From Comamonadaceae bacterium (GTDB lineage Bacteria > Pseudomonadota > Gammaproteobacteria > Burkholderiales > Burkholderiaceae_C), in assembly GCA_027486555.1 (NCBI GenBank), contig JAIXOX010000117.1:1-64000 (forward strand): DNA of 64,000 nucleotides, read 5' to 3'. Shown one piece after another: positions 9,338 to 48,160 of the stretch. The notes under the pieces were generated by a model. That model was given only the letters and a program-made list of their open reading frames with translations, did no database searches and was not told the origin of the DNA. The translations under genes and the position numbers were made by a program. Within the stretch, counting starts at the first letter, position 1. Every line of letters begins with the position of its first letter.

Positions 9338-10912
9338 TCATGCTTTGAAGTGTGCGCTGTCCATCACCTTCAGGTCTGGGGCTACCCTGGGCGCAAAGTC
9401 CATCTGGTCGAGCACATCGTGTTGCAAGTCAATGCCGGGGGCGATTTCGAACAGTTCGATCCCTTGGGGTGTGAGGCGAAAGCTGGCACGTTCGGTCAGG
9501 TAAAGCACCTCTTGTTTTCGCACCAAGCCTTGCGGGCCTGAAAAAGTGATTTGATCCACTTTCTTCACCAGCTTTTTCACAGCCCCTTGTGTGGCCACGC
9601 GTATCTGGCCATCGCCGGTCTCAAGCTTCACGCCCTTGGCGGCGAGCGTGCCGCAGAAGACCACTTTTTTGGCGTTCTGCGCGATGTCGATGAAGCCTCC
9701 GGGGCCGACAGTGACGCCGCCCAAGCGTGACACGTTGACCGAGCCTTCTTCGTCGAACTCGCCAAAGCCCAAAAAGGCGATGTCCAGCCCGCCGCCGCCG
9801 TAAAAGTCGAACTGCGTGGCGGCGTCCAGCATGGCGGTGGCGTTGCGGGCATAGCCAAACAGCACGCCGTCCATGAGCGTGCCGCCATAGGTGCCGTGCT
9901 CGATGGTTTGGTAGATGCGGTGCTGTTCGTTGCGCGCCGCGATCAGCTTGGCCACCGCGTCGGGCACGCCCACACCGTAGTTGATGACCGGGCGGGCCTT
10001 GTCGGTGTTGAAGAGTTCCAGGTATGCACGGCGCGCCACGGCCTGACGCTCGCTGAAAGCCTCTTGCGAGGCAGCCAGTTCGCGGGCGTGGTCTTGCGCT
10101 TCGCTGGTCGCGCGTTCAGCGCCGGTCAGCTCGCCACTGAAAGCCGGATCAAATGGGATGTCGTAGCTTGTGGACTGCTGCGGATCGACCACGATGGCGT
10201 CCACCCAGGCCGAGGGGATGCGCACTTCGCGGGCTTTGAGGGCGCCCTTGGGTATGCGCTCCTTGACCTGCACGATGACTTTGCCGCCGCTGTTGCGCGC
10301 TGCCAAGGCCAGCGATTGAGCGTCCAGGTTGGCCGCTTCGTGCTCGAAGCTGATGTTGCCGTCTTCGTCGGCGCTGCTGGCGCGCACGATGGCCACATGG
10401 ATGGGGAAGGGCTTGTAGCGGAGGTATTCGCGGTCATCGATGGTGATGACTTCGGCCAAGTCGTCTTGGGCGGCATCGTTCATGCGGCCCCCGCCGTGGC
10501 GCGGGTCGCATACGGTGCCCAGACCCACATGGCTGATGAGGCCGGGACGGCCTGCGCCGATCTCGCGCATGAGTTGGCTGCTCACGCCGCCGGGCAGGAT
10601 GTAGGCCTCGATCTTGTTGGCCAGGGCCAGTTGCTGCATGGCCGGTGACCAGACCCAGTGGCCACCGATGACGCGCTTGACCAGGCCTTCGTGCGCGAAA
10701 CAGCTCATGCCTTTGGTTTTCTTGTCGCCAATGCCCAGGGCATGGATGACGGTGAGGTTTGTCGGTGTCTGCGTGCTCATGAAGCGTTCTTGCACCGCTT
10801 CAAACAGGTGGGTCGCTTCCATCAAGCCGCCACCACCGCCCATGAGGCCCACGGTGTCGCCGTTTTGGATCAGTTGCGCCGCTTGTGCTGCGGTCATGAA
10901 TTTGGTTTGCAT
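9338..10912 (-). CDS. Acyl-CoA:acetate/propionate CoA-transferase (fused alpha-beta)
   Basis: The 524-residue protein contains both halves of a family I CoA-transferase: an N-terminal half with LMGGGGGLMEA and a C-terminal half with GVGVPDAVA and an EHGTYGG segment carrying the likely catalytic Glu that forms the CoA thioester. Length and architecture match YdiF/propionate CoA-transferase. It would move CoA from acetyl- or propionyl-CoA onto a carboxylic acid, or the reverse. It lies downstream of an acyl-CoA dehydrogenase, so it may activate that enzyme's substrate, although about 320 bases of repeats separate them. It ends at the terminator at 9296-9317. Confidence 0.85.
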   Translation of the reverse strand: MQTKFMTAAQAAQLIQNGDTVGLMGGGGGLMEATHLFEAVQERFMSTQTPTNLTVIHALGIGDKKTKGMSCFAHEGLVKRVIGGHWVWSPAMQQLALANKIEAYILPGGVSSQLMREIGAGRPGLISHVGLGTVCDPRHGGGRMNDAAQDDLAEVITIDDREYLRYKPFPIHVAIVRASSADEDGNISFEHEAANLDAQSLALAARNSGGKVIVQVKERIPKGALKAREVRIPSAWVDAIVVDPQQSTSYDIPFDPAFSGELTGAERATSEAQDHARELAASQEAFSERQAVARRAYLELFNTDKARPVINYGVGVPDAVAKLIAARNEQHRIYQTIEHGTYGGTLMDGVLFGYARNATAMLDAATQFDFYGGGGLDIAFLGFGEFDEEGSVNVSRLGGVTVGPGGFIDIAQNAKKVVFCGTLAAKGVKLETGDGQIRVATQGAVKKLVKKVDQITFSGPQGLVRKQEVLYLTERASFRLTPQGIELFEIAPGIDLQHDVLDQMDFAPRVAPDLKVMDSAHFKA

Positions 10913-11012
10913 TTTTCCAGTCTCTTCTTATTTCTGAGTTGGCAGTTTTGTGGTGTGCTGCGTGGGTCTGTTCTGGCGTTGGTCGGGTTTGGTGTTGTGG
11001 TCGCTGGGTTTT

Positions 11013-11100
11013 GTCATGCCGGACTTGATCCGGCATCCAGGTTTGCAGTCATGGACCCCGGATCAAGTCCGGGGTGACAGTCTTTCAAGTCCGGGGTGAC
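11013..11100. repeat. BIME/REP-like palindromic repeat, copy 1, with a partial tandem copy
   Basis: One unit has GCCGGACTTGATCCGGC, itself a hairpin, facing CCCCGGATCAAGTCCGGGG about 20 bases later. The two halves are also complementary to each other. A direct duplication of TCAAGTCCGGGGTGAC follows. A second copy of the element is at 12416-12505. Similar GATCAAGTCCGG palindromes occur between genes in many proteobacteria. Confidence 0.8.
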
Positions 11101-11114
11101 AATCTTTCAAGTCT

Positions 11115-11215
11115 ATGCAGACCTGCCGTGTGAGTGGGATGGGCGGCCGACGATTTCTGGTACCCCAGTATGAGGAGGCCGCCCATCCCATTCACTCGGC
11201 CCCCGCCATGCAGAC
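11115..11215. repeat. Long inverted repeat flanked by 8-base direct repeats
   Basis: The arms GTGAGTGGGATGGGCGGCC (11130-11148) and its reverse complement (11177-11195) pair over 19 positions with one mismatch. The 28-base loop holds a further CTGG/CCAG pairing. ATGCAGAC occurs on both sides (11115-11122 and 11208-11215), as a target-site duplication would. No coding capacity. It could be a MITE-like element or a structured transcript end. Confidence 0.5.
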
Positions 11216-11233: not shown

Positions 11234-12394
11234 TCAGCGGTTCACATCAAACAGCACGGCACCCTTCTTGAGCGCGCTCTTGGCGATCACGCCCCGGTGG
11301 ATCTCGCTGGTGCCGTCGTAGATGCGGTAAATGCGGGCATCGCGGTAATAGCGCTCGATGGTCAGTTCCTTGCAAAAGCCCATGCCGCCAAACACCTGCA
11401 CTGCACGGTCCACCACGCGACCCAGGGTCTCAGCCGCGTGCACTTTGACCATGGCAATCTGCTCGCGTGCGTCCATGCCTTGGTCCAGCATCCAGGCGGC
11501 GTGGTAGACCATCCAGCGGGCCGCGTTGATCTCGATCACACTGTCGGCGATCATCTGCTGCACCATCTGGAAATCGCCGATCTTGGTGCCGAACTGCTTG
11601 CGCTCATTGGCCCAGTTCACCATCAGCTCGCACACATGCGTGGCCTTGCCCACGGCGCGGGCACCCACCTGGGCCAGGCGCACCACATTGAGTGCGCCCA
11701 TGGCCAACTTGAAGCCCTGACCCGCCTCGCCCAGCAAGGCAGCGTCTTCGACTTGCACGTTGTCAAAGAACAGCTCCAAGTGTGGCGTGCCGCGCAGGCC
11801 CATCATCTTCTGGTCCTTGCCCACGGTGAAACCGGCTAGGCCCTTGTCCACCATGAACATCGAAATTTCTTTTTCACCTGTTTTGGCCGACACCAAAAAG
11901 AAATCGCTCCACTCGCCATCGCTGATGAAGTGCTTGGTGCCGTTCAGTACCCATCCTTGGTCATTTTTCTTGGCGTTGGTTTTGATGCCTGCCGCGTCCG
12001 AGCCTGCGCCCGATTCTGTGATGGTGATGGCGCAGGTGCGCTTGCCGGCCACGGCGGGTTTGAGCCAGCGTTCAATTTGCTCGCCCTTGCAGTGCAGCAG
12101 AGGCTCATACACATTGCCAAAAGCGCGGCGGATCAGGATGTCGGTGGTGTGGCCGAACTGCTCTTCGCACAGGATGCGGTCGATGTTGGACAGACCACCA
12201 CCGCCCATTTCGGCGGGCATGTTCATGCCGTAAAGGCCGAGCGCTTTGGCTTTGTCGTGGATGGCCTGGGCTTTGGTCTTGTCCAGAAAACCTGTTTCCT
12301 CGACCTCGTTTTCTAGGGGCTGAAGTTCTTCGGCGATGAAGCGGCGCACCGTTTCGATCATCATTCTTTGTTCGTCGTTGAGAGAAAAGTCCAT
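11234..12394 (-). CDS. Acyl-CoA dehydrogenase
   Basis: The 386-residue flavoprotein shows ITITESGAGSDAAGIKT (FAD and substrate loop), FISDGEWSDF, RKQFGTKIGDFQ and the C-terminal IYDGTSEIHRG. Family members insert a double bond alpha-beta to the CoA thioester and pass electrons to ETF. The usual YEGTSE catalytic Glu is Asp here (YDGTSE), a change also seen in dehydrogenases acting on cyclic acyl-CoAs. MDFSLN at 12394 is chosen because AAGGAAAC precedes it; an upstream in-frame ATG lies within a repeat. It is probably expressed with the TIM-barrel and flavoprotein genes upstream. Confidence 0.88.
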   Translation of the reverse strand: MDFSLNDEQRMMIETVRRFIAEELQPLENEVEETGFLDKTKAQAIHDKAKALGLYGMNMPAEMGGGGLSNIDRILCEEQFGHTTDILIRRAFGNVYEPLLHCKGEQIERWLKPAVAGKRTCAITITESGAGSDAAGIKTNAKKNDQGWVLNGTKHFISDGEWSDFFLVSAKTGEKEISMFMVDKGLAGFTVGKDQKMMGLRGTPHLELFFDNVQVEDAALLGEAGQGFKLAMGALNVVRLAQVGARAVGKATHVCELMVNWANERKQFGTKIGDFQMVQQMIADSVIEINAARWMVYHAAWMLDQGMDAREQIAMVKVHAAETLGRVVDRAVQVFGGMGFCKELTIERYYRDARIYRIYDGTSEIHRGVIAKSALKKGAVLFDVNR

Positions 12395-12415
12395 GGTGTT
12401 TCCTTGCATGTAGTG

Positions 12416-12505
12416 GTCATGCCGGACTCGATTCGGCATCCAGGTATTGATGTATTCGAGTGCTCAGGGCATCATCGATAGACCCCTGATCAAGTCCGGG
12501 GTGAA
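12416..12505. repeat. BIME/REP-like palindromic repeat, copy 2
   Basis: This carries the same elements as the copy at 11013: GCCGGACTCGATTCGGC on the left and TGATCAAGTCCGGGG on the right, with a longer and more diverged middle. The two copies flank the acyl-CoA dehydrogenase gene. Confidence 0.75.
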
Positions 12506-12541: not shown

Positions 12542-13351
12542 TCAGGCTTCCACAAACGGGCGGCTCTTTGCCAGGCATTCGATGGCCCAGTCTTGCTCCG
12601 AGGTGAGGGCTTCACGGCCCAGGTTCACCACTTCGACGCTGATCGGCAAGTCCGAGGGCAGGGCGGCAAACAGGCCTTGCAAGTCAATCGTGCCGTCGCC
12701 AGGCAAGAGGCGTTCGCAACGGGCGGTGTGGATCATTTGTTCGGTCGTGAACTGAAGTCCCGCTTGGGCATCGCATATTTGTGCGTAGTGCAGCAGTTCT
12801 CGCGGGATGGCACGGATGTCGTCGAGCGTGGTGGTGGACCGGCCAAAGTGCAGGGCATCGACCAGGATGCCCGCGTTGGCGGGCATGCCTGCGTTTTGCA
12901 TGATGCGCAGCGCCGACTTGGCGTCTTTCACCGCTGTCCAGGGCATGAATTCCAAATCGGCCGTCATGCCAAAAGGCTTCATCACCTCGCACAGTCGGGC
13001 GTAGTTCTCCGTCAGGCGGGCTTCGTGTGCATCGTCACCCGCCACCAGAATGGCCTTGGCTTGCAAGGCTGCGCCTGCGGCATACAAGGCATCCCAGGTG
13101 TGCGGGTCAAAGTTGTCGCCGATGCGGATGATTTCAAGATCGAACACGCCCACGCCGGTGTCGCGTTGTGCGGCCAGGGTTTCGCGCAGGGCCTCTGGCT
13201 GGTTCAGCAGGTGTTGCTGTTGTGCGCCGGGGGCGTTGGGCCACAGGCGCAGACCCACAAAGTGGTAGCCGGTCTGCGCCGCGACGCGGATCGCCTCGGC
13301 GGGCGAGCAGCGGTGCGAGCCGAGGTAGGCGAGGGAGTAGATGCGTGACAT
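12542..13351 (-). CDS. Sugar phosphate isomerase/epimerase-like TIM-barrel protein
   Basis: The 269-residue protein is an AP-endonuclease-2-type TIM barrel. Metal-site residues appear as LEIIRIGD, DLEFMPW, GILVDALHFGRS and SVEVVN. The superfamily includes sugar isomerases, inosose dehydratases and 3-dehydroshikimate dehydratases. It is 6 bases from the NIPSNAP/flavoprotein gene upstream, so it belongs to the same operon and probably acts on the same ring compound, for instance as dehydratase or isomerase. The exact reaction cannot be read from the sequence. Confidence 0.8.
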   Translation of the reverse strand: MSRIYSLAYLGSHRCSPAEAIRVAAQTGYHFVGLRLWPNAPGAQQQHLLNQPEALRETLAAQRDTGVGVFDLEIIRIGDNFDPHTWDALYAAGAALQAKAILVAGDDAHEARLTENYARLCEVMKPFGMTADLEFMPWTAVKDAKSALRIMQNAGMPANAGILVDALHFGRSTTTLDDIRAIPRELLHYAQICDAQAGLQFTTEQMIHTARCERLLPGDGTIDLQGLFAALPSDLPISVEVVNLGREALTSEQDWAIECLAKSRPFVEA

Positions 13352-13357
13352 GGTGGT

Positions 13358-13984
13358 TTATTTCAAAGGTGAGACAGCCGTGGGCATGGCGATGGTCGAG
13401 ACCATGTTCGTGGTCAGCTGCGCCGGGCCGCCTTTGGGCGGCCAGATGCCCTGGGCCACCGATTCGCCACGGATCTGGCTGCGGGCGTTCAGGCTGTCGT
13501 AGGCCCAGATGTTGGTGAAGCGCAGTGGGCCGTCGAGTGCCACCATCGCGATCACGCAAGGCGATAGCTTGTCGCGTGCGGGCACGTACTGTTCCCACAG
13601 GTCGATGGTGGGTTGCACGCCGCCTGTCTTGATGCCGTAAGTGCGGATTTCATAGACCGGGCCTGTGATGCCGGATTCGGCGCTGGGGCGCACGGGCTTC
13701 ATCCAGGGGAAGCCTTTGTAGCTGTGCTGCTCCAGCGTTTGATAAATCTCGCCACATCCAAGGGGGTTGGTGCTTTGTTGGGTGCGATCGCGCTCGGCCT
13801 GCAAGGCGTCCAGCGTGGCAAAGCCGCGCAACACGATCATCTGGTTGAGCACGCCAATGTCGGTGAACCAGCAGCCCAGCAATTCGCCTTGCGCTTCGGG
13901 GGCTGTGGCAAAGGCCTGCACATTCGTGGCGGCTTGGCCAGCGGTACCAAAGGGCAGGGTCATGGTGGCGAGTTCGTAGTACAT
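13358..13984 (-). other. NIPSNAP domain with possible internal start
   Basis: ATG at 13984 begins MYYELATMTLPFG, a typical NIPSNAP-family N-terminus, and is preceded by an A-rich GAAAGAAAAC sequence that could act as a ribosome binding site. The 208 residues contain two ferredoxin-like repeats, the second starting at VYEIRTYGIKTGG. The family's role is poorly known; bacterial members often sit in ring-compound catabolic operons. It may be made both as the fused C-terminus and as a free protein. Confidence 0.6.
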
Positions 13985-15766
13985 GGTGTTTTCTTTCGAG
14001 GTGTCGGTTGACGTTGTTGTGATCGGGTATTCGCAGGTGGCGGCTGGGTCGCGGCCAGCCGCGTGGTGCGCGGCAATGAAGCCAAAAGTCATGGCCGGGC
14101 CGAGTGTGATGCCGCCGGCTGGGTAGTGGCCGCCCATCATGCTGCTCAGGTCATTGCCCCCGGCATACAGACCTGCAATGGCCTGGCCTTGGGCGTTGGT
14201 GACTTGCGCGTGGTCGTTCACGCGTAAACCGGCAAAAGTGCCAAGGCTACCCATGACGACTTTGACGGCATAAAAAGGGCCATGCTCGATGGGGCCCATG
14301 CAGGGGTTGCGCAAGCCGTGTCGTGCGGCGTTGATCGCATCACCCTGGATGCGGTTGTAGGGCGTTTCGCCTTTGCCAAAGTCACGGTCTTTGCCGTCCT
14401 GTACCAAGGCGTTGTAGCGCTGTACCGTTGCCTGCAAAGCCTTGGCGTCTATGCCGCAGGCCTGTGCCAGTTCAGCCAGAGACTGTCCGCGTTTCAGGTA
14501 AGCATTCTTCAGCCAGGGGCCGAGCGGCATGGGCGCCGGTTTGACCGCACCCAGGCCGTAGTAGCGGATGAAGTCGTGGTCGCAGACCAACCAGGCCACG
14601 GGTGGCTGACCGGTGGGTGTCGCGGTCAGTAGGTCCTGCATGAAGTCGTGGTACGAGTCGGCTTCGTTGGCAAAGCGCAAACCCTTTGCCGTGACGGCTA
14701 TCAGCCCGGGCTTGGCGCGCTCGATCAGGTGCGGAAAGTGCGCCACGCTGCCATCGGTACGGGGTACCAGTGATACCGGGGCCAGCGCAGCGGCTTGCAC
14801 CAGATCGCCCGCCACCTCACCTCCTGCGGATTCGCCCAGGCGCAGGCCGTCGCCCGTGTTGCCCCGGTTGCCCGCAGACCAGTGCTCATGGCCTGTGGGG
14901 GCGTGGGGCAGCAGTTGTTGTTTGCGGGCGGGGTCGTGCGGAAAGCCGCCTGTGGCCAGCACCACGCCGCAGCGGGCTTGGATGCTGACTTCCCCCTGAG
15001 GCATTTGAACCACGGCGCCCGTGACACGCGCTCCGTCTTGCAGCAAACGCACGGCTGGGCTGTTCACGCGCATGTCCACCCCAAGGTCCAGCGCTGACTT
15101 GGCCAGTCCGCCAATCAAGGCATTGCCATTGACCAGTCGCGTGCCACGGTCGTGCACCAACAGGTCACGTCCGTGGCGCAGCAGCAGTTTGGTGACGTAC
15201 CAGAACGAAGCTGGCTTGTGCAGCGCATTCAAAAAGTGGCGCAGCTCCGCACCCGAGGCGATGCCCATGCCCCACAGCGTGGTTTCGTACAAAGGTGGTT
15301 TGAGGTCGTGCAGGCGCTCGCCAAGTTGGCGGGCGTCAAACGGTGCGGCGCAGATCGAGCGGCCACCGGTGGCGGCATCGGGTGTGTGGCCATGAAAGTC
15401 GGGGATGGTGTTGCCGTCGATGAACTGCAGCGCAGTGTGGCGGCGGAAAAACTCAACCATGCGCGGACCGTTGTTCAGGAAGGCGAGGGCCCGGGACTCG
15501 TCGAACTTCTCGCCCAGCTCGCGGCGCAGGTACGACAGCGGTTTTTCAATGCGCTCCAGCAGACCCGCTTCGACGGCCAGGGGGTTTCGCGGCACCCACA
15601 TCCAGCCGCCCGACCAGGCGGTGGTGCCGCCGTATTTCGGGTCTTTTTCAACCACGATGACTTTGAGGCCCAGGTGGGCCGCGGTCACGGCCGCAGACAG
15701 GGCGCCGGCCCCAGAACCGATGACCAGTAAGTCGCAGGTGTTGTCAGGAGTGAAGCTCGAAGTCAT
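13358..15766 (-). CDS. FAD-dependent ketosteroid-dehydrogenase-like enzyme fused in frame to a NIPSNAP domain
   Basis: One open frame of 802 codons holds two proteins usually separate. Residues 1-575 are a succinate dehydrogenase/3-ketosteroid delta1-dehydrogenase-type flavoprotein: LLVIGSGAGA at 13-22 (third glycine of the FAD motif replaced by Ala), VVEKDPKYGGTTAWSGG, RGTRLVNGNALIGGL, and the C-terminal GGHYPAGGITLG with Tyr548 and Gly552. The Tyr and Gly correspond to the residues that bind the ketone in ketosteroid dehydrogenases. After a Thr/Ser-rich linker, residues 595-802 are a NIPSNAP protein. No stop codon lies between. The start MTSSFTPDN at 15766 precedes the FAD motif by the usual distance. 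Located 17 bases after the IclR gene. Confidence 0.82.
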   Translation of the reverse strand: MTSSFTPDNTCDLLVIGSGAGALSAAVTAAHLGLKVIVVEKDPKYGGTTAWSGGWMWVPRNPLAVEAGLLERIEKPLSYLRRELGEKFDESRALAFLNNGPRMVEFFRRHTALQFIDGNTIPDFHGHTPDAATGGRSICAAPFDARQLGERLHDLKPPLYETTLWGMGIASGAELRHFLNALHKPASFWYVTKLLLRHGRDLLVHDRGTRLVNGNALIGGLAKSALDLGVDMRVNSPAVRLLQDGARVTGAVVQMPQGEVSIQARCGVVLATGGFPHDPARKQQLLPHAPTGHEHWSAGNRGNTGDGLRLGESAGGEVAGDLVQAAALAPVSLVPRTDGSVAHFPHLIERAKPGLIAVTAKGLRFANEADSYHDFMQDLLTATPTGQPPVAWLVCDHDFIRYYGLGAVKPAPMPLGPWLKNAYLKRGQSLAELAQACGIDAKALQATVQRYNALVQDGKDRDFGKGETPYNRIQGDAINAARHGLRNPCMGPIEHGPFYAVKVVMGSLGTFAGLRVNDHAQVTNAQGQAIAGLYAGGNDLSSMMGGHYPAGGITLGPAMTFGFIAAHHAAGRDPAATCEYPITTTSTDTSKENTMYYELATMTLPFGTAGQAATNVQAFATAPEAQGELLGCWFTDIGVLNQMIVLRGFATLDALQAERDRTQQSTNPLGCGEIYQTLEQHSYKGFPWMKPVRPSAESGITGPVYEIRTYGIKTGGVQPTIDLWEQYVPARDKLSPCVIAMVALDGPLRFTNIWAYDSLNARSQIRGESVAQGIWPPKGGPAQLTTNMVSTIAMPTAVSPLK

Positions 15767-15782
15767 TGGCGATCCGCTCGGC

Positions 15783-16616
15783 TCAGAGCGCGTAAATCGG
15801 CTTGCGCCCATCGGTGGGTGCTGCGTTGCCGACCTCAGCGGTCAGGCTGAAAAAGGGCGATGCACCGCTGGATGCGGCCAACTGTTGCGCGATGCTGATC
15901 AGCTCGGGCGCGAGGGCTTGCATTTTTTCGGGTGTGAAGCGTACCGTGGGGCCTGCAATCGTCAGCACGCCAAATGCGGGCTGACCGGCAAAGCGCACTG
16001 GCGTTGACATGGCCGACAAGCCAATGCTGTAGGTGTCGGTCGTCATGCTGTAGCCTCGCGTGCGGGTTTGAGTCACGGCGCCCATCACGGCTTGCAAGCT
16101 GGTCGGGGCAGCGGGGCCGAATTGTTCAGGTGAGCCCAAGCCTTGTTTGGCCACCAGCGCCAGGGCCGCGTCATCACTCAGCGTGGAGAGCAAGGCCCAG
16201 CCTGACGACGAGCAGGACAGGCGGGCATCGCTGCCCATGTCGGGGTCGTAGCGCAGACCTTGGCGAGCACCTTGGGCACGGGCCACCCAAGTCAGGCGTT
16301 CGCCGTCTACCACCGACAGGCGAACCAGCTCACCCGAAACCTCGGCCAAGCGGTTGAGCAGCGGTTGTGCAATGTCCACGATGCCGCTGTTGCTGAGGTA
16401 GCTCAGCCCCATGGACACCAGCTTGGTGGTCAGCAGGTAGTCGCCGTGACCGCGCGTCTGGCGCACATAGCCCAGGCGCACCAAGTCGGTCAGCAAGCGG
16501 TGCGTGCCGCTTCGGGGAATGTCGAGCCGATCGGCAATGGCGGCCAGCTCCAGGCCTTCACCGTGTTGCGAGAGCAACTCGAGAATGCCCAGGGTTCTTT
16601 CGAGGACGCCGCTCAT
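15783..16616 (-). CDS. IclR-family transcriptional regulator
   Basis: The 277-residue protein has an N-terminal winged helix (ILELLSQHGEGLELAAIADR, then RSGTHRLLTDLVRLGYV) and a C-terminal GAF-like effector domain ending PIYAL. IclR regulators bind organic acids and control catabolic operons. The frame is open further upstream, but MSGVLERTLGIL at 16616 is the standard family start and overlaps the preceding Gfo/Idh/MocA gene by ATGA. Two palindromes of IclR type at 17726-17758 are the probable operators for this leftward operon and the divergent rightward one. Confidence 0.88.
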   Translation of the reverse strand: MSGVLERTLGILELLSQHGEGLELAAIADRLDIPRSGTHRLLTDLVRLGYVRQTRGHGDYLLTTKLVSMGLSYLSNSGIVDIAQPLLNRLAEVSGELVRLSVVDGERLTWVARAQGARQGLRYDPDMGSDARLSCSSSGWALLSTLSDDAALALVAKQGLGSPEQFGPAAPTSLQAVMGAVTQTRTRGYSMTTDTYSIGLSAMSTPVRFAGQPAFGVLTIAGPTVRFTPEKMQALAPELISIAQQLAASSGASPFFSLTAEVGNAAPTDGRKPIYAL

Positions 16617-40122: not shown

Positions 40123-40155
40123 GGAGTTCTCCAAAAAATAGTGCGGGGTGGCAGA

Positions 40156-40973: not shown

Positions 40974-41012
40974 TGTCAATATATTGTCTCATTCTAGGGT
41001 TTGCGATATTCC
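40974..41012. promoter_or_regulatory. Divergent badH/badR promoters sharing a palindrome (candidate BadR operator)
   Basis: CAATATATTG (40977-40986) is a perfect palindrome, extending to GTCAATATATTGTC with one mismatched pair. It overlaps the leftward -35 TTGACA (40979 to 40974). It also overlaps the rightward -35 TTGTCT (40984-40989), which is followed after 17 bases by TATTCC (41007-41012). A MarR dimer here would block both promoters, consistent with BadR repression of bad genes and of itself. Confidence 0.6.
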
Positions 41013-41555: not shown

Positions 41556-41599
41556 GCCTGTGGGGTGAATCGGCTTGCAGCCGCCCTATACTTCGAAAA

Positions 41600-42283
41600 A
41601 TGAACCAACCGGTACATTCTTCTGATCCCTTGCTGAGCGCCTCCACCGGCACCAGCCGCACCAACGACCCGGCCCGCACCATGGCCGAGATCCTGGCTGT
41701 GGCCACACACGAGTTCGCCGACAAGGGCCTGAGTGGCGCGCGCATCGACGCCATTGCCGCGGCCACGCGCACCAGCAAGCGCATGATCTACTACTACTTC
41801 GGCAGCAAAGATGGCTTGTACCTGGCGGTGCTTGAAGAGGCTTACCGGCGCATGCGGGCCATCGAGTCGGACCTGCACCTGGACGACCTGCCGCCTGCGC
41901 AGGCGCTGCAAAAGCTGGTGGAGTTCACCTACGACCACCACCGCGACAACGAAGACTTCATTCGGCTGGTGATGAATGAGAACATCCAGCGCGGTGATTA
42001 TTTGCGGCAAAGCCAGAGCATTCAGGCGCTCAACTCCAATGCCATCCAGTCGGTGCAGGCGGTGTACGACCGGGGTGTGGCGCAGGGCGTGTTCAGGGCA
42101 GGGCTGGACCCGGTGGACATCCACTCGGCGATTTCGGCGTTCTCGTTTTTCAACGTCTCCAACCGCCACACCTTTGGCCTGATCTTTCAGGACCGGGCCA
42201 GCCAGGACAAGGCCAACACCCTCAAGCGGGTGCATGTGGTCGAGTTGATCCTGCGCTTTGTCAGTCATACCATTTCGGCATAG
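41600..42283 (+). CDS. TetR-family regulator
   Basis: The 227-residue protein has a TetR DNA-binding domain at residues 28-75: AEILAVATHEFADKGLSGAR, then IDAIAAATRTSKRMIYYYFGSKDGLYLAVL. The C-terminal helical ligand domain is TetR_C-like. It precedes the TRAP transporter genes in the same orientation. A 16-base sequence at its own 5' end recurs before the transporter operon, so it probably represses both. Substrate sensed is likely the acid carried by the TRAP system. Confidence 0.85.
   Translation: MNQPVHSSDPLLSASTGTSRTNDPARTMAEILAVATHEFADKGLSGARIDAIAAATRTSKRMIYYYFGSKDGLYLAVLEEAYRRMRAIESDLHLDDLPPAQALQKLVEFTYDHHRDNEDFIRLVMNENIQRGDYLRQSQSIQALNSNAIQSVQAVYDRGVAQGVFRAGLDPVDIHSAISAFSFFNVSNRHTFGLIFQDRASQDKANTLKRVHVVELILRFVSHTISA
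41603..41618. promoter_or_regulatory. Candidate TetR operator at the regulator's own start
   Basis: AACCAACCGGTACATT overlaps codons 2-7 of the TetR gene. The AACCA and GTACATT parts, 4 bases apart, are repeated exactly at 42340-42355 before the TRAP operon. The centre ACCGGT is palindromic. Occupancy here would cause autorepression. Confidence 0.4.
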
Positions 42284-42355: not shown

Positions 42356-42380
42356 ATTGATATCCCATTTTTGGAGACGT

Positions 42381-42920
42381 GTGTTGGTTCATAAATTCAT
42401 CGACGGTTTTTGCAAAGTCCTGAACGTCGTCATGGCCCTGTGTTTGGCCGTGATGGTGGTGCTGGTCTTTGGCAACGTGGTCATGCGCTACGGGTTCAAC
42501 TCAGGCATCACCTTGTCTGAAGAGCTGTCGCGCTGGCTGTTCGTCTGGATGACCTTCATGGGCGCTGTCGTTGCCTTGAAGGAGCACGGTCACTTGGGCA
42601 CCGACATGTTGCTGGGCCGACTGGGCCCGGCGGGCAAGAAGTTTTGCCTTGGCTTGTCTTACCTGGCCATGTTGTTCATTTGCTGGCTGCTGTTCAAAGG
42701 GGCTTACCAGCAGACCGTGATCAATCTGGGCAGCACCAGCGCGGTGATGGAAGTGACCATGGCTTGGGTCTATGCCCCGGGCGTGGTGTTTGCGGTGCTG
42801 GCGGGCTTGATCTTGCTGACCGATCTGTATCGATTGCTCACCGGCCAAGTGCGTGATGAAGACCTGGTCATGGTTCAGGAATCCGAAGAGTCGCCCCATG
42901 GCGGCAGTGGCAAAGCCTGA
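42381..42920 (+). CDS. dctQ: TRAP transporter small membrane subunit (DctQ family)
   Basis: The 179-residue protein has four hydrophobic segments (about residues 12-35, 48-66, 88-108 and 130-152) and the DctQ signature FGNVVMRYGFNSGITLSEEL. It links the binding protein DctP to the large permease. No ATG is available. GTG 42381 or TTG 42384 follows GGAGA by 3 and 6 bases; the longer form is given. Downstream dctM begins 18 bases after the stop. Confidence 0.85.
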   Translation: MLVHKFIDGFCKVLNVVMALCLAVMVVLVFGNVVMRYGFNSGITLSEELSRWLFVWMTFMGAVVALKEHGHLGTDMLLGRLGPAGKKFCLGLSYLAMLFICWLLFKGAYQQTVINLGSTSAVMEVTMAWVYAPGVVFAVLAGLILLTDLYRLLTGQVRDEDLVMVQESEESPHGGSGKA

Positions 42921-42937
42921 GCGCACAAGGGACTGAC

Positions 42938-44215
42938 ATGACGATCGCTATTTTTGTTTTTTCTCTGCTCGGGGCCATGGCCATTGGCATCCCGATTGCG
43001 TTTTCGCTCTTGATCTGCGGCGTGGCGCTGATGTGGCACCTGAACATGTTCGATGCCCAGATCCTCGCGCAAAACCTGCTTGAAGGCGCCAACAGTTTCC
43101 CTTTGCTGGCCGTGCCGTTTTTCATGCTGGCCGGCGAGATCATGAATGCAGGTGGTTTGTCGCGCCGCATCGTGAACTTTGCAATGGCCTGCGTGGGCCA
43201 CATCAAAGGCGGCCTGGGTTACGTGACCATCATGGCCGCCGTGATCATGGCAGCGTTGTCGGGCTCGGCGGTGGCCGATGCGGCGGCGCTGTCGGCCTTG
43301 CTCTTGCCCATGATGGTGGCGGCAGGCCATGACCGGGCCCGCTCGGCGGGCTTGATTGCTTCAGCGAGCATCATCGCCCCGGTCATTCCGCCCAGCATTG
43401 GCTTTGTGATCTTTGGCGTGGCGGGCAATGTGTCCATCTCCAAACTGTTCATGGCTGGTATCGTGCCCGGCATCATGCTGGGCGCATCGCTGTGGGTCAC
43501 CTGGTGGTGGTTGGCGCGGCGTGAAATGGTGCAGGTACCGCCACGCAAGTCCATGAGCGAGATCCTGGTGGCCATGCGCGAAGCCACCTGGGCGCTGGTG
43601 ATGCCGCTCATCGTGGTGTTTGGCCTGAAGTTCGGCATTTTCACCCCCACCGAAGCGGCGGTGGTGGCGGCGGTTTACGCCTTGTTCATTTCCACTGTCG
43701 TTTACCGCGAACTGGGTTTGAAAGACCTGTACCCCTTGTTTGTGAGTTCGGCCAAAACCAGCGCAGTCGTGATGTTTTTGGTGGCTGCCGCCATGGTCTC
43801 GGCCTGGCTCATCACGGTGGCCAATTTACCAGCCCAGCTGATCGAAATTTTGCAGCCCTTGATGGACAGCCCGCGTTTGCTCATGTTCACCATCATGGTG
43901 ATCATCATTGTGATCGGCACCGCGCTCGACATGACGCCCACCATTTTGCTCTTGACCCCGGTGCTCATGCCGGTGGTCAAGGCGGCAGGCATCGACCCGA
44001 TTTACTTCGGTGTTTTGTTCATCATCAACTGCGCCATTGGCCTGATCACACCGCCTGTGGGCACGGTGCTCAACGCCGTGGCCGGTGTCGGAAAAATCAG
44101 CATGGACGAAGTCACGCGGGGCGTGCTGCCTTTCATGATTGCCCAGTTCACCGTCATGTTTGCCATGGTGCTCTTTCCTGCGTTGGTGATGGTGCCCGCG
44201 CGTTGGTTCTATTGA
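42938..44215 (+). CDS. dctM: TRAP transporter large permease (DctM family)
   Basis: The 425-residue polytopic permease has the DctM hallmarks PFFMLAGEIMNAGGLSRR, SGSAVADAAALSALLLPMM, SIIAPVIPPSIGFVIFG and GLITPPVGTVLNAVAGV. It catalyses sodium-coupled uptake of a carboxylate delivered by DctP. Full length. A strong hairpin lies between it and dctP. Confidence 0.92.
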   Translation: MTIAIFVFSLLGAMAIGIPIAFSLLICGVALMWHLNMFDAQILAQNLLEGANSFPLLAVPFFMLAGEIMNAGGLSRRIVNFAMACVGHIKGGLGYVTIMAAVIMAALSGSAVADAAALSALLLPMMVAAGHDRARSAGLIASASIIAPVIPPSIGFVIFGVAGNVSISKLFMAGIVPGIMLGASLWVTWWWLARREMVQVPPRKSMSEILVAMREATWALVMPLIVVFGLKFGIFTPTEAAVVAAVYALFISTVVYRELGLKDLYPLFVSSAKTSAVVMFLVAAAMVSAWLITVANLPAQLIEILQPLMDSPRLLMFTIMVIIIVIGTALDMTPTILLLTPVLMPVVKAAGIDPIYFGVLFIINCAIGLITPPVGTVLNAVAGVGKISMDEVTRGVLPFMIAQFTVMFAMVLFPALVMVPARWFY

Positions 44216-44224
44216 TTCCCGGGT

Positions 44225-44257
44225 GTGGTTGTCTGATCGGGTACGCCTGACAACCAC
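44225..44257. other. Intercistronic stem-loop between dctM and dctP
   Basis: GTGGTTGTC and GACAACCAC pair perfectly around 15 bases, 9 bases after the dctM stop. No T-tract follows. Binding proteins are needed in excess over permeases, and such hairpins often stabilise or separate the dctP message. Confidence 0.5.
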
Positions 44258-44303
44258 CCCTTTGATGCACAGCGTACGTCCTTCTTTCTACTGGAGACCC
44301 TTC

Positions 44304-45299
44304 ATGAAACGTGTATTCATCAAGTCCTTGATCGCCACCGTGGCACTGGCCGCCATGGGCGTGGCTTCGGCGCAAGACAAAACCATCAAGTTCGCTAACC
44401 AGAATGCAGCGGGCCACCCCATCATTCAGGGCATGGAAAAGTTCAAGGAAATCGTCGAGAAAAACTCCGGCGGCAAGCTCAAGGTCAACGTGTTCCCCGC
44501 TGGCGCTTTGGGCAGCGACCAGGCCAACGTCTCGGCCATTCAAGGTGGCACTTTGGAGATGGCTTCGATGAACTCGGGCATCTTTGCCTCGCAAGTGCGC
44601 GACTTTTCGGTGTTTGATTTCCCCTTCATGTTCGCCAGCGGCCAAGAAGCCGATGCCGTGGTGGACGGTGCCTTTGGCAAGAAATTGCACGCCAAGCTGG
44701 AAGAAAAAGGCCTGGTGGGTTTGGGCTTTTATGAGCTGGGCTTTCGCCATGTGACGAACGGCCGCCGCGCCATCAACAAGGTGTCGGACATCGAAGGCCT
44801 GAAGCTGCGCGTGATCCCCAACCCGATCAATGTGGACTGGGTCAAGGCGCTGGGTGCCAACCCCACACCGCTGCCATTCCCTGAGCTGTACGCTGCGCTG
44901 GAACAAAAAGCCGTGGACGGCCAGGAAAACCCCGTGGCCACCATCAACGGCGCCAAGCTGTTCGAAGTGCAAAAGCACATGGTTCTGACCGGTCACCAGT
45001 ACAACCCCCAGTCGATCGTCATCAGCAAGAAGTTCTGGGACACCTTGTCGGCCGCTGAAAAGAAAATCCTGAGCGACGCGGCTGCCGAGTCCTCGAAGTT
45101 CCAGCGCACCCAAGCGCGCGCCCAGGAAGCCAGCTTGCTGGAGAACTTGAAGAAAAACGGCATGCAAGTGACCAGCTTGCCCGCGGCCGAAGTGGCCATC
45201 TTGCGCGACAAGATGAAGCCTGTGATTGCCAAGCACGGCGAGGCGATTGCCGCCACCGTGGCCGAACTGCAAGCTGAGTTGGCCAAGCTGCGCAAGTAA
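44304..45299 (+). CDS. dctP: TRAP transporter substrate-binding protein (DctP family)
   Basis: The 331-residue periplasmic protein has a signal peptide (KRVFIKSLIATVALAAMG, cleavage after ASA). The DctP fold includes FANQNAAGHPIIQGMEKF and GLKLRVIPNPINVDWVKALGANPTPLPF, with the Arg that salt-bridges the ligand carboxylate, then VDGQENP. Start at 44304 is supported by GGAGA and the signal peptide. The neighbouring AroE-like and dehydratase-like genes suggest a hydroxylated ring acid such as quinate or shikimate as ligand. Confidence 0.9.
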   Translation: MKRVFIKSLIATVALAAMGVASAQDKTIKFANQNAAGHPIIQGMEKFKEIVEKNSGGKLKVNVFPAGALGSDQANVSAIQGGTLEMASMNSGIFASQVRDFSVFDFPFMFASGQEADAVVDGAFGKKLHAKLEEKGLVGLGFYELGFRHVTNGRRAINKVSDIEGLKLRVIPNPINVDWVKALGANPTPLPFPELYAALEQKAVDGQENPVATINGAKLFEVQKHMVLTGHQYNPQSIVISKKFWDTLSAAEKKILSDAAAESSKFQRTQARAQEASLLENLKKNGMQVTSLPAAEVAILRDKMKPVIAKHGEAIAATVAELQAELAKLRK

Positions 45300-45453: not shown

Positions 45454-46287
45454 ATGATCAACGGCCACACCGAACTCATCGCGCACATCGGCTACCCCAC
45501 GCACACCTTCAAGTCCCCGATGATTTACAACCCGTACTTCAAGGAGGCGGGGATCAACGCGGTGGTGGTGCCCATGGGTTGCAAAGCTGAGCACTACCCG
45601 GTTTTCCTCCGGTCTGTGTTCACCCTCGAAAACATTCGGGGTGCGCTGATCACCATGCCGCACAAGGTCAGCACGGTGGGTTTGCTCGATGAAGTGACCG
45701 CCACCGTGCGCGTGGCGGGGGCTTGCAACGCGGTCAAGCGTTTGGCCGATGGTCGCCTGGTGGGTGACATGTTTGACGGTGCCGGTTTTGTGCGCGGTGT
45801 GCAGCGCAAGGGTTTTGACCTTGTAGGCAAACGCGTACTCGTTGTCGGTACAGGGGGTGTGGGTTGCGCGATTGCGGCATCGCTCGCGGGCGCAGGCATT
45901 GCGGCCATCAGCCTGTTCGATGTGAACTCCGCTTGCTGCGAAGCATTGGCCAAGCGACTCAAAGACAACCACCCGAAAATCGATGTGCGCACCGGCGCCA
46001 ACGATCCGGTGGGGCATGATCTGGTTGTCAACGCCACACCCTTGGGCATGAACGAAGGCGATCCGCTGCCCCTGGATGTCTCGCGCCTGTCGCCCGACAC
46101 TTTTGTAGGCGAGGTGGTCATGCGTGCCGAGACCACCGCGTTTTTGGCGGCAGCCCAAGCGCGCGGCTGCCGCACCCAGGTGGGCACCGACATGCTGTAC
46201 GAGCAAATCCCTGCCTATCTGGAATTTTTTGGCCTGCCCACCACCACGGCCGACGTGTTGCGCCGTGTGGCCCAGCTGAGTTATTGA
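45454..46287 (+). CDS. Divergent shikimate-dehydrogenase-like enzyme (AroE family paralogue)
   Basis: The 277-residue AroE-family enzyme keeps Lys71 (TMPHK) and Asp108 (DMFDG) of the catalytic pair and has GTGGVGCAIAASLAGAG as nucleotide loop. The first carboxylate-binding serine of AroE is Phe19 here (TFKSP). PHK and DMFDG are shared with the paralogue at 17780 and not with canonical AroE. It probably oxidises quinate, shikimate or a similar acid with NAD(P) for catabolism. It follows the TRAP genes and precedes the VOC and TIM-barrel genes by 21 bases. Confidence 0.85.
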   Translation: MINGHTELIAHIGYPTHTFKSPMIYNPYFKEAGINAVVVPMGCKAEHYPVFLRSVFTLENIRGALITMPHKVSTVGLLDEVTATVRVAGACNAVKRLADGRLVGDMFDGAGFVRGVQRKGFDLVGKRVLVVGTGGVGCAIAASLAGAGIAAISLFDVNSACCEALAKRLKDNHPKIDVRTGANDPVGHDLVVNATPLGMNEGDPLPLDVSRLSPDTFVGEVVMRAETTAFLAAAQARGCRTQVGTDMLYEQIPAYLEFFGLPTTTADVLRRVAQLSY

Positions 46288-46308: not shown

Positions 46309-47184
46309 ATGAACCTGAACAAAGTGGACCGCGAAGCCGTGCCGGACATGCCCAACCGATTGGGTATCGCAGGCATTGAATTCATCGAATACGCCACCAG
46401 CCGCCCTCAGGCCCTGGGTCAGGTGCTCGAAAACATGGGCTTTCGCCCGGTGGCCCGTCACCGCTCACGCGAGGTGACGCTGTACCGCCAGGGCAGCATG
46501 AACCTGGTGGTCAACGCCAGCCCGGACGATGCCCGCGTGAGCGGCACGGTCGACGGCCAGCCCGCCATCTCGGCCGTGGCCTTTCGGGTGCAAGACGCCT
46601 TGAAGGCGCACACCCGCTGCCTGGACTTGGGCGCATGGAACGTGGACAGCCACGCGCAGGCCATGGAACTGCACATCCCTGCCATCCACGGCCCGGGCGG
46701 CAGCCGCTTTTACTTTGTGGACCGCTGGCAAGAATTCTCGATTTACGACATCGACTTCAAGCCCATCCCCACGGTGGACCCGAATCCACCGGCACTGACG
46801 GGCATGAGTTATTTCGGTGTGGTGCAGTACATCGGTGCGGCCCGCAGCGCCGACTGGCAGACTTATTACGAACACATGTTTGACTTCAGCAGCATTCCCG
46901 ACGAGGAGCGCTTTGGCATCTTGCCCAAGGGCAAGCTCATGAAAAGCCCCTGCGGCACTTTCTTGTGGCAGCTCATTGAGCCTGAGCCCTGGATGGATGC
47001 CGACGACAGCCCCGAGTGCCTGCAACGCATCGGCTTTGGTGTGCCCGATGTGGGGCAGGCCGTGGCCGCGCTCAAGGCCCGTGGCGTGGAGTTTGTGGAG
47101 TCCACCCGATTGCATCCCGAAGACCGTGGCGCGCTCACCCGCGTCACCTTGGGTTCGGTCGCCTTCGAACTCGTTCACCAGTGA
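46309..47184 (+). CDS. VOC-superfamily protein, 4-hydroxyphenylpyruvate-dioxygenase-like
   Basis: The 291-residue protein has two VOC modules: IAGIEFIEYATSRPQALGQVLENMGFRPVARHRS at the N-terminus, and MSYFGVVQYIGAARSADWQTYYEHMFDF after residue 160. It resembles the HPPD-like half of Pseudomonas QuiC-type dehydroshikimate dehydratases. Possible metal ligands are seen (a Glu in VAFELVHQ), but a full dioxygenase site is not evident. A TIM-barrel gene follows, like the other half of QuiC. Together they may act as a two-subunit dehydratase; a lactoylglutathione-lyase or true dioxygenase role remains possible. Confidence 0.7.
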   Translation: MNLNKVDREAVPDMPNRLGIAGIEFIEYATSRPQALGQVLENMGFRPVARHRSREVTLYRQGSMNLVVNASPDDARVSGTVDGQPAISAVAFRVQDALKAHTRCLDLGAWNVDSHAQAMELHIPAIHGPGGSRFYFVDRWQEFSIYDIDFKPIPTVDPNPPALTGMSYFGVVQYIGAARSADWQTYYEHMFDFSSIPDEERFGILPKGKLMKSPCGTFLWQLIEPEPWMDADDSPECLQRIGFGVPDVGQAVAALKARGVEFVESTRLHPEDRGALTRVTLGSVAFELVHQ

Positions 47185-47225
47185 AAAAAATGAAGTCCCC
47201 ACTTTCATCACTTCGTGTATTCACT

Positions 47226-47240
47226 GCCCCCCAAGGGGGC
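47226..47240. repeat. C5-AA-G5 palindromic spacer repeat
   Basis: GCCCCCCAAGGGGGC forms a hairpin, followed by CTTGGGGCGGCCCTGCGGG, in the 94-base gap between the VOC and TIM-barrel genes. I recall very similar TCACTGCCCCCC-AGGGGGC spacers from many Comamonadaceae genomes. It has no coding role here, although the preceding TTCACTGCCCC-type context suggests a mobile palindromic element. Confidence 0.6.
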
Positions 47241-47278
47241 GTCGGTCTCCCTTGGGGCGGCCCTGCGGGAGACCTGCC

Positions 47279-48160
47279 ATGAACTTGCTCGATGGCTACG
47301 GCATGGACACCATCACCATGGCCGGTACGCTGGAGGCCAAGCTGGCGGCCATGAAGGGCGCTGGCTTTTCTCAGGTGATGCTGATGGCCCGCGATCTGGT
47401 CACGCACCCGGGTGGTGTGCAGGCGGCCGTGGCGGCCGTGCGCCAAAGCGGCATGCGGCCCACCGGTTTTCAGGTGCTGCGCGACTTTGAAGGCCTGTCA
47501 GGCCACTTGCACAGCTACAAGCTCGACATTGCCAAAGCCATGCTGGAGATGTGCGCAGCCAGCGGCAGCAAGGTTTTGCTGGCCTGTTCGTCCACCTCCC
47601 GCCACGCCACACAAGACCTGGATCAGATTGCCGCCGACCTGAAAAAGCTGGCCATGCTGGCCGTGCCTTTGGGCATCAAAATCGCTTACGAAGCGCTGTC
47701 CTGGGGCCGCACGGTCAACGAATTCACCACCAGCTGGGACGTGGTCTGTCGCGCCGATTGTCCCAACCTCGGCATTGGCTTGGACTCCTTCCACATCTTT
47801 GCAGCCAAAACCACGCTCGACGCGATCGAAGAGCTGGACCCGTCCAAAATCTTTTTGGTGCAACTGTCAGACTTCATGTGGCAAGAAACCCCCACCTTTG
47901 AAGAGCGCATGACCACGGCCCGCACTTTCCGTGTGTTTCCCGGCGAAGGGGTGCACAGCGAACAGTTGGCCGATTTGGTGCTGCGCCTGGACCGCATTGC
48001 TTACCGGGGCGATTACAGCTTTGAGGTGTTCAACGACGACTACCAGCAGCTGCCGCTGGAGACTGTGGCCGAGCGGGCACGCCAAAGCGCGCAGTGGTTG
48101 CAACAAGACGTGTTGCACAAACCGGCACCTTTGCCCGCATGGGTTCATACCCGAGGCTGA
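47279..48160 (+). CDS. TIM-barrel sugar isomerase/dehydratase, 3-dehydroshikimate-dehydratase-like
   Basis: The 293-residue AP-endonuclease-2-fold protein has IKIAYEALSWGR (metal Glu), GIGLDSFHIFAAKT (Asp, His), FLVQLSDFMW and RVFPGEGVH, and YSFEVFND (final metal Glu). This set matches QuiC/AsbF-like dehydroshikimate dehydratases, which make protocatechuate from 3-dehydroshikimate. ATG 47279 is the family-normal start, just after the palindromic repeat. With the AroE-like and TRAP genes it suggests quinate/shikimate catabolism. Confidence 0.78.
   Translation: MNLLDGYGMDTITMAGTLEAKLAAMKGAGFSQVMLMARDLVTHPGGVQAAVAAVRQSGMRPTGFQVLRDFEGLSGHLHSYKLDIAKAMLEMCAASGSKVLLACSSTSRHATQDLDQIAADLKKLAMLAVPLGIKIAYEALSWGRTVNEFTTSWDVVCRADCPNLGIGLDSFHIFAAKTTLDAIEELDPSKIFLVQLSDFMWQETPTFEERMTTARTFRVFPGEGVHSEQLADLVLRLDRIAYRGDYSFEVFNDDYQQLPLETVAERARQSAQWLQQDVLHKPAPLPAWVHTRG

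Follow-up and report, generated by a model that had tools for sequence, protein, structure and literature searches.

Does a run of neighbouring genes for alicyclic acids encode a single catabolic pathway, or several that can be separated? This question is raised by positions 9338–48160 of a 64,000-nucleotide stretch of DNA from a Comamonadaceae bacterium (assembly GCA_027486555.1, contig JAIXOX010000117.1, positions 1 to 64,000), which we call the window. This window lies on contig 10, which has 70,087 bases, and comes from a Limnohabitans-like genome of 3.83 Mb; the named records closest to its flavoprotein Flav3 are Limnohabitans sp. at 99–100%. An initial annotation had proposed one island joining coenzyme A (CoA)-dependent ring opening to a possible aromatisation route. 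We lean towards another organisation, in which the stretch consists of several separable modules, each with a regulator, rather than one pathway, and adjacent modules channel acids with a six-membered ring towards two kinds of central metabolism.

Family-model scans recovered the gene inventory of that annotation: three FAD_binding_2 flavoproteins, five short-chain dehydrogenases/reductases (SDRs, BadH counted), two AroE-like genes, two TIM barrels (AP_endonuc_2), an acyl-CoA dehydrogenase besides AliB, a CoA-transferase, four regulators of different families (IclR, AraC, MarR and TetR) and three transporter types (TTT, ABC and TRAP). It had missed a β-hydroxyacid dehydrogenase, an HPPD/VOC-like gene and a NIPSNAP domain in frame behind Flav1. 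The gene groups exceed chance, with family scores far above chance level and the same groups recurring in other genomes. Several of the mechanically called open reading frames (ORFs) are overlong, and the likely starts lie at 34444 (SDR4), 17780 (AroEL1), 47279 (TIM2), 40923 (BadH) and 16616 (IclR).

Three flavoproteins resemble ketosteroid dehydrogenases

The flavoproteins are encoded at 13985–15811 (Flav1, minus strand, start uncertain), 18588–20309 (Flav2, plus strand) and 31915–33615 (Flav3, minus strand); Flav1 passes model NF004789 (876.4 bits, cut-off 747) and Flav2 passes NF009477 (844.5 bits, cut-off 758). For all three the best solved match was 7p18, a ketosteroid dehydrogenase (KSTD), at 319 bits for Flav1, 265 bits for Flav2 and 291.5 bits for Flav3, whereas flavocytochrome c fumarate reductases and urocanate reductase reached at most 106, 76 and 73 bits, respectively. 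In what we take to be the numbering of the KSTD of strain SQ1, equivalents of Tyr318, Tyr487 and Gly491 are present in all three proteins and that of Tyr119 in Flav2 and Flav3, so that the catalytic set Tyr, Tyr, Tyr, Gly is retained 4/4 in Flav2 and Flav3 and 3/4 in Flav1. Tyr318 and Tyr487 are conserved in every alignment row of relatives (29/29 for Flav1, 17/17 for Flav2, 90/90 for Flav3), Gly491 in 29/29, 16/17 and 90/90 rows, and Tyr119 in 4/29, 17/17 and 90/90 rows. A quick tree of 84 rows resolved three separate flavoprotein groups with support of 99–100, plus a fourth small group, and placed two KSTDs apart from them on long branches.

The initial annotation had suggested weighing the three against 4-oxocyclohexanecarboxylate desaturases and KSTDs, and had named fumarate or urocanate reductases as the company that would speak against its idea. 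KSTD proved nearest (265–319 bits, against at most 106 bits for the reductases) and the cut-offs of the ChcC1 and ChcC2 models were missed. Since 7p18 is the best match and most or all KSTD catalytic residues are kept, Flav1–3 are by sequence nearest to ketosteroid dehydrogenases, not to fumarate or urocanate reductases. With scores far under the model cut-offs, we did not assign them to the ChcC1 and ChcC2 families, but Flav1–3 probably carry out chemistry of that kind and may act like ChcC1/ChcC2. The flavoprotein of L113 scores 505 bits (cut-off 900).

Module 2 probably aromatises a hydroxylated ring acid

Flav3 lies between two SDR genes, SDR3 (31078–31878, minus strand; PF13561, 235 bits) and SDR4 (33626–34444, minus strand; PF13561, 214 bits). 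An AraC regulator (34499–35476, plus strand; PF12833, 79 bits) diverges from SDR4, and an ABC importer of the branched-chain amino acid type (SBP, LivF, LivG, LivM and LivH; 26530–31060, minus strand; PF13458, PF00005, PF02653) completes the module. The longer frame 33626–35662 was rejected as a fused SDR because its first part runs opposite the AraC gene.

To follow this arrangement we used the best 80 of 228 Flav3 relatives, to which every count out of 80 refers; the gene-presence thresholds are our own choice, several loci extend less than 10 kb on one side, and L071 and L074 are apparently a single Derxia stretch counted twice. SDR4 was present in 58/80 loci, AraC in 55, SDR3 in 32 and LivH of the importer in 24. 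The genes pobA, pcaH and pcaG were named by likeness to annotated Paracoccus genes. On this basis pobA occurs in six loci (L067, L071, L074, L084, L085 and L087), five of them distinct with Derxia counted twice, against a rough chance expectation of 0.4 in 80 that assumes 5-Mb genomes and 1.3 copies; pcaH occurs in four (L065, L070, L071 and L074), and one or the other in 8/80. In Paraburkholderia atlantica, AraC-SDR4-Flav3 is followed by pobA as the next long ORF, and in Haematobacter pobA adjoins NIPSNAP-AraC-Flav3.

Annotated records of Flav3 relatives were read for seven plasmid regions, mostly picked for having annotation, out of 60 matches listed (373 records matched); two further stretches, from actinobacterial plasmids, carried no annotation. 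Two of them carry pobA (L104 and L109), a third, from Salipiger (L110), carries aliA, aliB, badI and a badH-like SDR gene, and the remaining four (L105, L106, L107 and L111) have neither pobA nor ali/bad; a NIPSNAP gene is annotated at most two genes from Flav3 in six of the seven. On a plasmid of Paracoccus sp. MA, pobA, pcaD, pcaC, pcaH, pcaG and a full-length QuiC stand beside homologues of modules 2–4: from module 2, Flav3 (62%), SDR3 (57%), SDR4 (51%) and AraC (31%); from the others, AroEL2 (64%), Flav1 (58%), IclR (49%), AroEL1 (47%), NIPSNAP (47%), Flav2 (46%) and TIM1 (46%). Its ABC genes are 23–36% like those of the window. In our view this region gives the strongest evidence that the modules feed aromatic-acid metabolism.

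Together, the pobA/pca neighbourhoods and the Paracoccus plasmid favour desaturation of a ketone to 4-hydroxybenzoate as the role of module 2. Its SDRs would oxidise a ring hydroxyl to a ketone and Flav3 would desaturate the ring beside that ketone, giving a dienone that would tautomerise to 4-hydroxybenzoate; in short, judged from its genes, module 2 probably oxidises and desaturates a hydroxylated ring acid to 4-hydroxybenzoate. PobA and an extradiol dioxygenase encoded elsewhere in the genome would carry the product onward. Two PobA-like genes of this genome exceed the cut-off of NF006091 and none that of TIGR02360; the one whole gene scores 537 bits (cut-off 351) and 466 bits (cut-off 538.7), respectively. 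Three LigB-family genes are present, one HpaD-like, a second that aligns to protocatechuate 4,5-dioxygenase and passes a model for class III extradiol subunits, and a third with no NCBIfam match at E 1e-40.

A different setting is seen at locus L055 (3189–19170), where SDR4 and AraC are absent and a Flav3-like gene (71%) is surrounded by TctC, CaiB-like, MaoC-like and acyl-CoA dehydrogenase-like genes.

Module 3 combines two desaturase-like proteins with a dehydratase-like TIM barrel

On the minus strand, module 3 comprises TIM1 (12542–13351; PF01261, 48.7 bits), a NIPSNAP domain (13358–13984; PF07978, 84 bits) that forms the C-terminal part of the Flav1 frame, Flav1 itself and an IclR regulator (15783–16616; PF01614, PF09339). 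On the plus strand lie the divergent AroE-like dehydrogenase AroEL1 (17780–18586), Flav2 and a TTT transporter, TctC-TctB-TctA (20552–23722; PF03401, PF07331, PF01970). The transporter region, 20001–24000, has a GC content of 0.53 against 0.61–0.63 around it. Flav1 and NIPSNAP share one open frame (13358–15811) in the window and in L114, L115, L117 and L119 of the same genus; L116, L118 and other genera have a separate ORF for each. The fusion is unlikely to stem from a sequencing error, because the fused frame is seen in five loci, four of them from other genomes of the genus.

TIM1 is remote from the QuiC1 structure 5hmq (20.5 bits), its best solved match being 2g0w (41 bits), and it is 24–25% identical to TIM2 and QuiC. 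Glu134, Asp165, His168, Gln191 and Glu239 are nevertheless invariant among TIM1, its Paracoccus homologue, TIM2 and Paracoccus QuiC. PMC7442255 counts Glu134, Asp165, His168, Gln191 and the last Glu among the active-site residues of QuiC1 and QsuB.

Annotated Flav1 regions, three of 15 matches listed and again mostly picked for having annotation, placed homologues of AroEL1, Flav1, NIPSNAP, TIM1 and Flav2 beside QuiC, TTT genes and a further AroE-like gene in Paracoccus alcaliphilus, with no Flav3 homologue found in that stretch. In Paracoccus methylovorus, homologues of AroEL1, IclR, Flav1, NIPSNAP and TIM1 lie beside phenylacetate genes.

We propose that AroEL1 would make a ketone from a polyhydroxylated hydroaromatic acid, that Flav1 and Flav2 would add ring double bonds, and that TIM1 would remove water to yield protocatechuate or a near relative. 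Module 3 thus probably aromatises hydroaromatic acids towards protocatechuate.

Module 4 probably degrades quinate or shikimate

Module 4 runs on the plus strand from a TetR regulator (41600–42283; PF17938, 144 bits) through a TRAP transporter, DctQ-DctM-DctP (42357–45299; PF04290, PF06808, PF03480), and a second divergent AroE-like dehydrogenase, AroEL2 (45454–46287), to two genes resembling the halves of a split QuiC. The ORF at 41477–42268 (minus strand) was discarded as a gene: it matches no family and lies opposite the TetR gene. The HPPD/VOC-like half (46309–47184; PF14696, 152 bits) covers QuiC model positions 289–494, and TIM2 (47279–48160) covers positions 6–261 and aligns to 5hmq over the dehydratase domain at 134 bits; their order (46309–48160) is reversed relative to the fused enzyme. 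The QuiC model NF042435, made for the fused form with a cut-off of 1200, is missed by TIM2 (153 bits), the VOC gene (82 bits) and TIM1 (23 bits). AroEL1 and AroEL2 likewise miss the AroE cut-off of 252 (best 127 and 145). Their clear best solved match is 4k28, presumably RifI2 of Pseudomonas putida, at 149 bits for AroEL1 (next 86) and 172 bits for AroEL2 (next 98). Just outside the stretch, on its left (8271–9101), a third AroE-like gene scores 327 bits to 3pwz and 233 bits to 1nyt, and looks like an ordinary biosynthetic AroE.

In two related loci (L017 and L025) AroEL2, an aroQ-like ORF and TRAP genes adjoin, and in a third, from Malikia (L019), the locus end holds an aroQ-like ORF alongside the TRAP genes; the aroQ-like ORFs here, like the CaiB-like and MaoC-like ones of L055, were named by eye and not by family search. 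The Malikia locus gathers aroQ, TRAP and TetR; AraC, SDR4 and Flav3; and CoAT (the CoA-transferase), ACAD2 (the acyl-CoA dehydrogenase), TIM1, NIPSNAP, Flav1, IclR and AroEL1 within 21.7 kb, with no ali/bad inside that span. With TetR as regulator and TRAP as transporter, AroEL2 and the split QuiC would convert quinate or shikimate to protocatechuate, and a quinate/shikimate catabolic route is the probable function of module 4.

Module 1 is the known ring-opening pathway

The CoA-dependent route is encoded on the minus strand by AliA, a cyclohexanecarboxylate-CoA ligase (36458–38200; TIGR03208, 925.6 bits, cut-off 792.3), AliB, a cyclohexanecarboxyl-CoA dehydrogenase (38160–39317; TIGR03207, 673.5, cut-off 575.35), BadI, a 2-ketocyclohexanecarboxyl-CoA hydrolase (39340–40134; TIGR03210, 529.3, cut-off 467.6), and BadH, a 2-hydroxycyclohexanecarboxyl-CoA dehydrogenase (40156–40923; TIGR03206, 449.6, cut-off 431.2). 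These four are contiguous and all exceed curated equivalog cut-offs in NCBIfam. The initial annotation had counted a complete badH-badI-aliB-aliA-badK set; in the badK place (35667–36458, minus strand) we found only a match to a general enoyl-CoA hydratase model, NF004517 (399.8 bits, cut-off 396), with no BadK model among the best 25 matches listed.

A MarR gene (41043–41555, plus strand; PF12802, 43 bits), our BadR candidate, diverges from badH, and the gap between them contains CAATATATTG (40977–40986), which has the form CAAN4TTG. This is the operator form reported for BadR of Aromatoleum sp. CIB in the part of PMC9795900 open to us. The motif recurs in six of nine related badH-marR gaps and is absent from L029, L030 and L110. 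It is common in the 64-kb window (58 matches against 33 expected, with 0 of 100 shuffles as high), so the weight of the operator rests on its place, and we regard CAATATATTG as a candidate BadR-type operator. On these family matches module 1 is the known bad-ali pathway, in which AliA, AliB, the enoyl-CoA hydratase, BadH and BadI would convert cyclohexanecarboxylate to its CoA ester and open the ring to pimelyl-CoA, with MarR/BadR as the regulator.

The modules occur apart in other genomes

The window holds both ali/bad and module 3. Among the 80 Flav3 loci, ali/bad was found in ten (six Limnohabitans records, two Curvibacter and two uncultured Burkholderiales) and at least three module 3 genes in 22, and at our thresholds, on which this result depends, no locus had both. 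Nearest to an overlap is L009, in which AliA and AliB occur with two module 3 genes, Flav2 and AroEL1. L117 and L118 carry module 3 without Flav3 in the 10 kb read. The cultured Limnohabitans strains MMS-10A-192 and T6-5 (L012 and L013) have modules 1 and 2.

Within the genus, sets were read by eye in 90 genomes. Flav3 was taken as matches of at least 71% (15/90), Flav1 as 27 matches of 44–47% (474–528 bits) and Flav2 as 25 matches of 35–40% plus two partial ones. Ten matches of 46–49% (566–603 bits), two of 43% (G258 and G202; 492–496 bits) and further ones of 34–40% or shorter were assigned to other groups, and the Flav1/Flav2 sequence check covered six genomes besides the window's own. So defined, the 27 genomes with Flav1 are also those with Flav2, two of the Flav2 copies being partial, and 14 of the 15 genomes with Flav3 also have Flav1. 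AliA exceeds its cut-off in 19 of the 90: in 10 of 15 genomes with Flav3 and in 9 of 75 without, uncorrected for relatedness, and in none of the 13 that have Flav1 but lack Flav3.

Because the modules occur apart in other genomes, with module 3 and ali/bad near Flav3 in separate loci, we reject the single island of the initial annotation. The CoA route and the aromatising route are linked in some lines and are not bound to each other.

Weighing the proposed routes

Gene content, residues, conservation and neighbourhoods are observed features of these loci; from them we infer the substrates, products and step order of modules 2–4. The aromatising route that the initial annotation had placed beside the CoA route is probable, given the KSTD-like flavoproteins and the pobA or pcaH genes near Flav3. 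Its further idea, that every combination of SDR or AroE-like genes with a flavoprotein is a variant of the 4-oxocyclohexanecarboxylate route, is not supported, as the AroE-like/TIM-barrel modules resemble quinate/shikimate catabolism more.

A number of observations weigh against the scheme. Flav1 has Phe in place of Tyr119. The ChcC2 model scores Flav3 at 547, Flav1 at 479 and Flav2 at 415 bits (cut-off 900), the ChcC1 model scores them at 301, 297 and 291 bits (cut-off 1000), and SDR3 (201 bits) and SDR4 (175 bits) both miss the cut-off of 350 for ChcB2, a hydroxycyclohexanecarboxylate dehydrogenase; no protein of 200 Burkholderiales genomes reaches the ChcC2 cut-off. SDR4 is under our threshold in 22/80 Flav3 loci, some of them short, and the Haematobacter SDR4 homologue is distant (33%). 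Among the 55 loci with AraC and SDR4, 19 lack ali/bad, module 3, pobA and pcaH alike, and the neighbours in L055 look, by eye, like a CoA-dependent setting. In the source genome the whole PobA-like gene falls under the TIGR02360 cut-off, two more pobA fragments are truncated at contig ends, and no PcaH exceeds its cut-off. Around Flav1 of P. methylovorus neither Flav2 nor QuiC was found within 32 kb, so the Flav1–Flav2 pairing is not strict outside the genus. Finally, the scheme has no step for CoAT, ACAD2, the HIBADH-type β-hydroxyacid dehydrogenase, SDR1, SDR2 or NIPSNAP.

It is fairly unlikely that the KSTD-like modules act instead on other alicyclic ketones (terpenoid acids, plain cyclic ketones or steroid fragments), the nearness of ali/bad and pobA being loose catabolic clustering. 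According to PMC10966990, plain cyclohexanone is a substrate of a characterised enzyme whose catalytic residues are those of the KSTD set, and Flav3 relatives are found in other settings too. Set against this are pobA or pcaH in 8 and ali/bad in 10 of the 80 loci, the appearance of both kinds of neighbour in annotated records, and the AroE-like and QuiC-like ring-acid enzymes around the flavoproteins.

An unlikely alternative is that the flavoproteins belong to a CoA-dependent route, in which hydroxylated cyclohexanecarboxyl-CoA esters would be oxidised and desaturated in thioester form, and CoAT, ACAD2 and ali/bad would be their partners. CoAT is present in 13 and ACAD2 in 14 of the Flav3 loci (TIM1 being there too in 11 and 12, respectively), the L055 relative sits amid CaiB-like and MaoC-like genes, and within the genus AliA goes with Flav3 (10/15 against 9/75), all of which would fit thioester substrates; AliA nevertheless exceeds its cut-off in none of the 13 genomes that have Flav1 and lack Flav3. 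No CoA ligase gene lies between pobA and Flav3 in Haematobacter or P. atlantica, an absence tempered in Haematobacter by acyl-CoA synthetase and acetyl-CoA hydrolase/transferase genes within 12 kb.

We dismiss as very improbable that Flav1–3 serve respiration or redox balance as reductases of the fumarate or urocanate type. They share the FAD_binding_2 family with such enzymes, and three entries (8am3, 8am6 and 8am8) that bear the title 'fumarate reductase/succinate dehydrogenase flavoprotein domain protein', and that we suspect to be cyclohexanone dehydrogenase, match at 92–123 bits, but the solved-structure scores and the retained catalytic Tyr and Gly speak against this identity.

We therefore return to modules that feed ring acids partly through CoA esters and partly through aromatic acids. 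PMC9795900 cites reports that strains of Alcaligenes, Acinetobacter and Pseudomonas degrade cyclohexanecarboxylate by aromatising it. In the open literature searched we found no Gram-negative genes named for this route, on which subscription papers may say more, and, as far as the searched texts were accessible, no paper describing modules 2–4 in Gram-negative bacteria. Tentatively, and with some doubt, module 3 could represent an undescribed Beta-/Alphaproteobacterial aromatising path, taking dihydroshikimate, 3,4-dihydroxycyclohexanecarboxylate or the like to protocatechuate with a 4k28-type AroE-like dehydrogenase, a pair of KSTD-like desaturases and a TIM barrel resembling dehydroshikimate dehydratase, and module 2 a Gram-negative aromatising set for hydroxylated cyclohexanecarboxylates. 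In this stretch a known ring-opening route has as neighbours probable routes, so far little studied, by which rings become ordinary aromatic acids that are then broken down. Candidates for flavoproteins now labelled only 'FAD-dependent oxidoreductase' come from the conserved units AraC-SDR4-Flav3 and AroEL1-Flav2-Flav1-TIM1, which make the funnelling of ring acids into aromatic metabolism open to growth and enzyme assays.

Other genes in and beside the stretch

The genes without a step in the scheme are all on the minus strand. CoAT (9338–10912; PF01144, 81 bits) is a FadX-like, one-chain CoA-transferase that scores 360 bits against NF052271 (cut-off 750), and ACAD2 (11234–12439; PF00441, PF02770, PF02771) is an acyl-CoA dehydrogenase. 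Between the TTT and ABC transporter genes lie the HIBADH-type dehydrogenase (23913–24794; PF03446, PF14833; under NCBIfam cut-offs), SDR1 (24887–25666; PF13561, 200 bits) and SDR2 (25668–26459; PF13561, 201 bits). Beyond the stretch, the minus strand carries a hybrid PAS histidine kinase gene and a family 3 solute-binding protein gene (48162–51490), and an integrase-core (rve) transposase-like gene follows at 51968–52894.

Comparison with known systems

KSTD (7p18, 4c3x) and the cyclohexanone dehydrogenase of PMC10966990, whose four catalytic residues are given as Tyr, Tyr, Tyr and Gly in the part of that paper open to us, are the nearest solved relatives of Flav1–3, which share the set fully (Flav2, Flav3) or to 3/4 (Flav1). 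Unlike these enzymes, Flav1–3 match at only 265–319 bits and have ring-acid genes as neighbours, steroid genes not having been searched for.

With the Sinomonas Chc pathway, known to us through the NCBIfam models ChcB2, ChcC1 and ChcC2, the Limnohabitans-like genome shares SDRs, KSTD-like desaturases and PobA-like genes. It differs in that all candidates fall far under the model cut-offs and that module 2 has one desaturase where Chc has two. Nor was a P450 present among the window proteins scanned; P450 matches occur on five other contigs, so a cyclohexanecarboxylate hydroxylase may still be encoded there.

Quinate/shikimate catabolism of the QuiC1/QsuB type (5hmq; PMC7442255, as far as accessible) is matched by the active-site residues of TIM1 and TIM2, the AroE-like dehydrogenases and the aroQ-like ORF in relatives, whereas here QuiC is split and reversed, TIM1 is only 24–25% identical, and the AroE-like proteins lie under AroE cut-offs and nearest to 4k28.

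Module 1 agrees with the bad-ali clusters of R. palustris and Aromatoleum sp. CIB in AliA, AliB, BadH, BadI, the divergent MarR gene and the CAAN4TTG in its gap. Unlike Burkholderiales bad-ali clusters, which mostly lack badK according to the accessible part of PMC9795900, the Limnohabitans-like stretch has an enoyl-CoA hydratase gene in the badK place, and, unlike the known clusters, its ali/bad genes adjoin flavoprotein modules.

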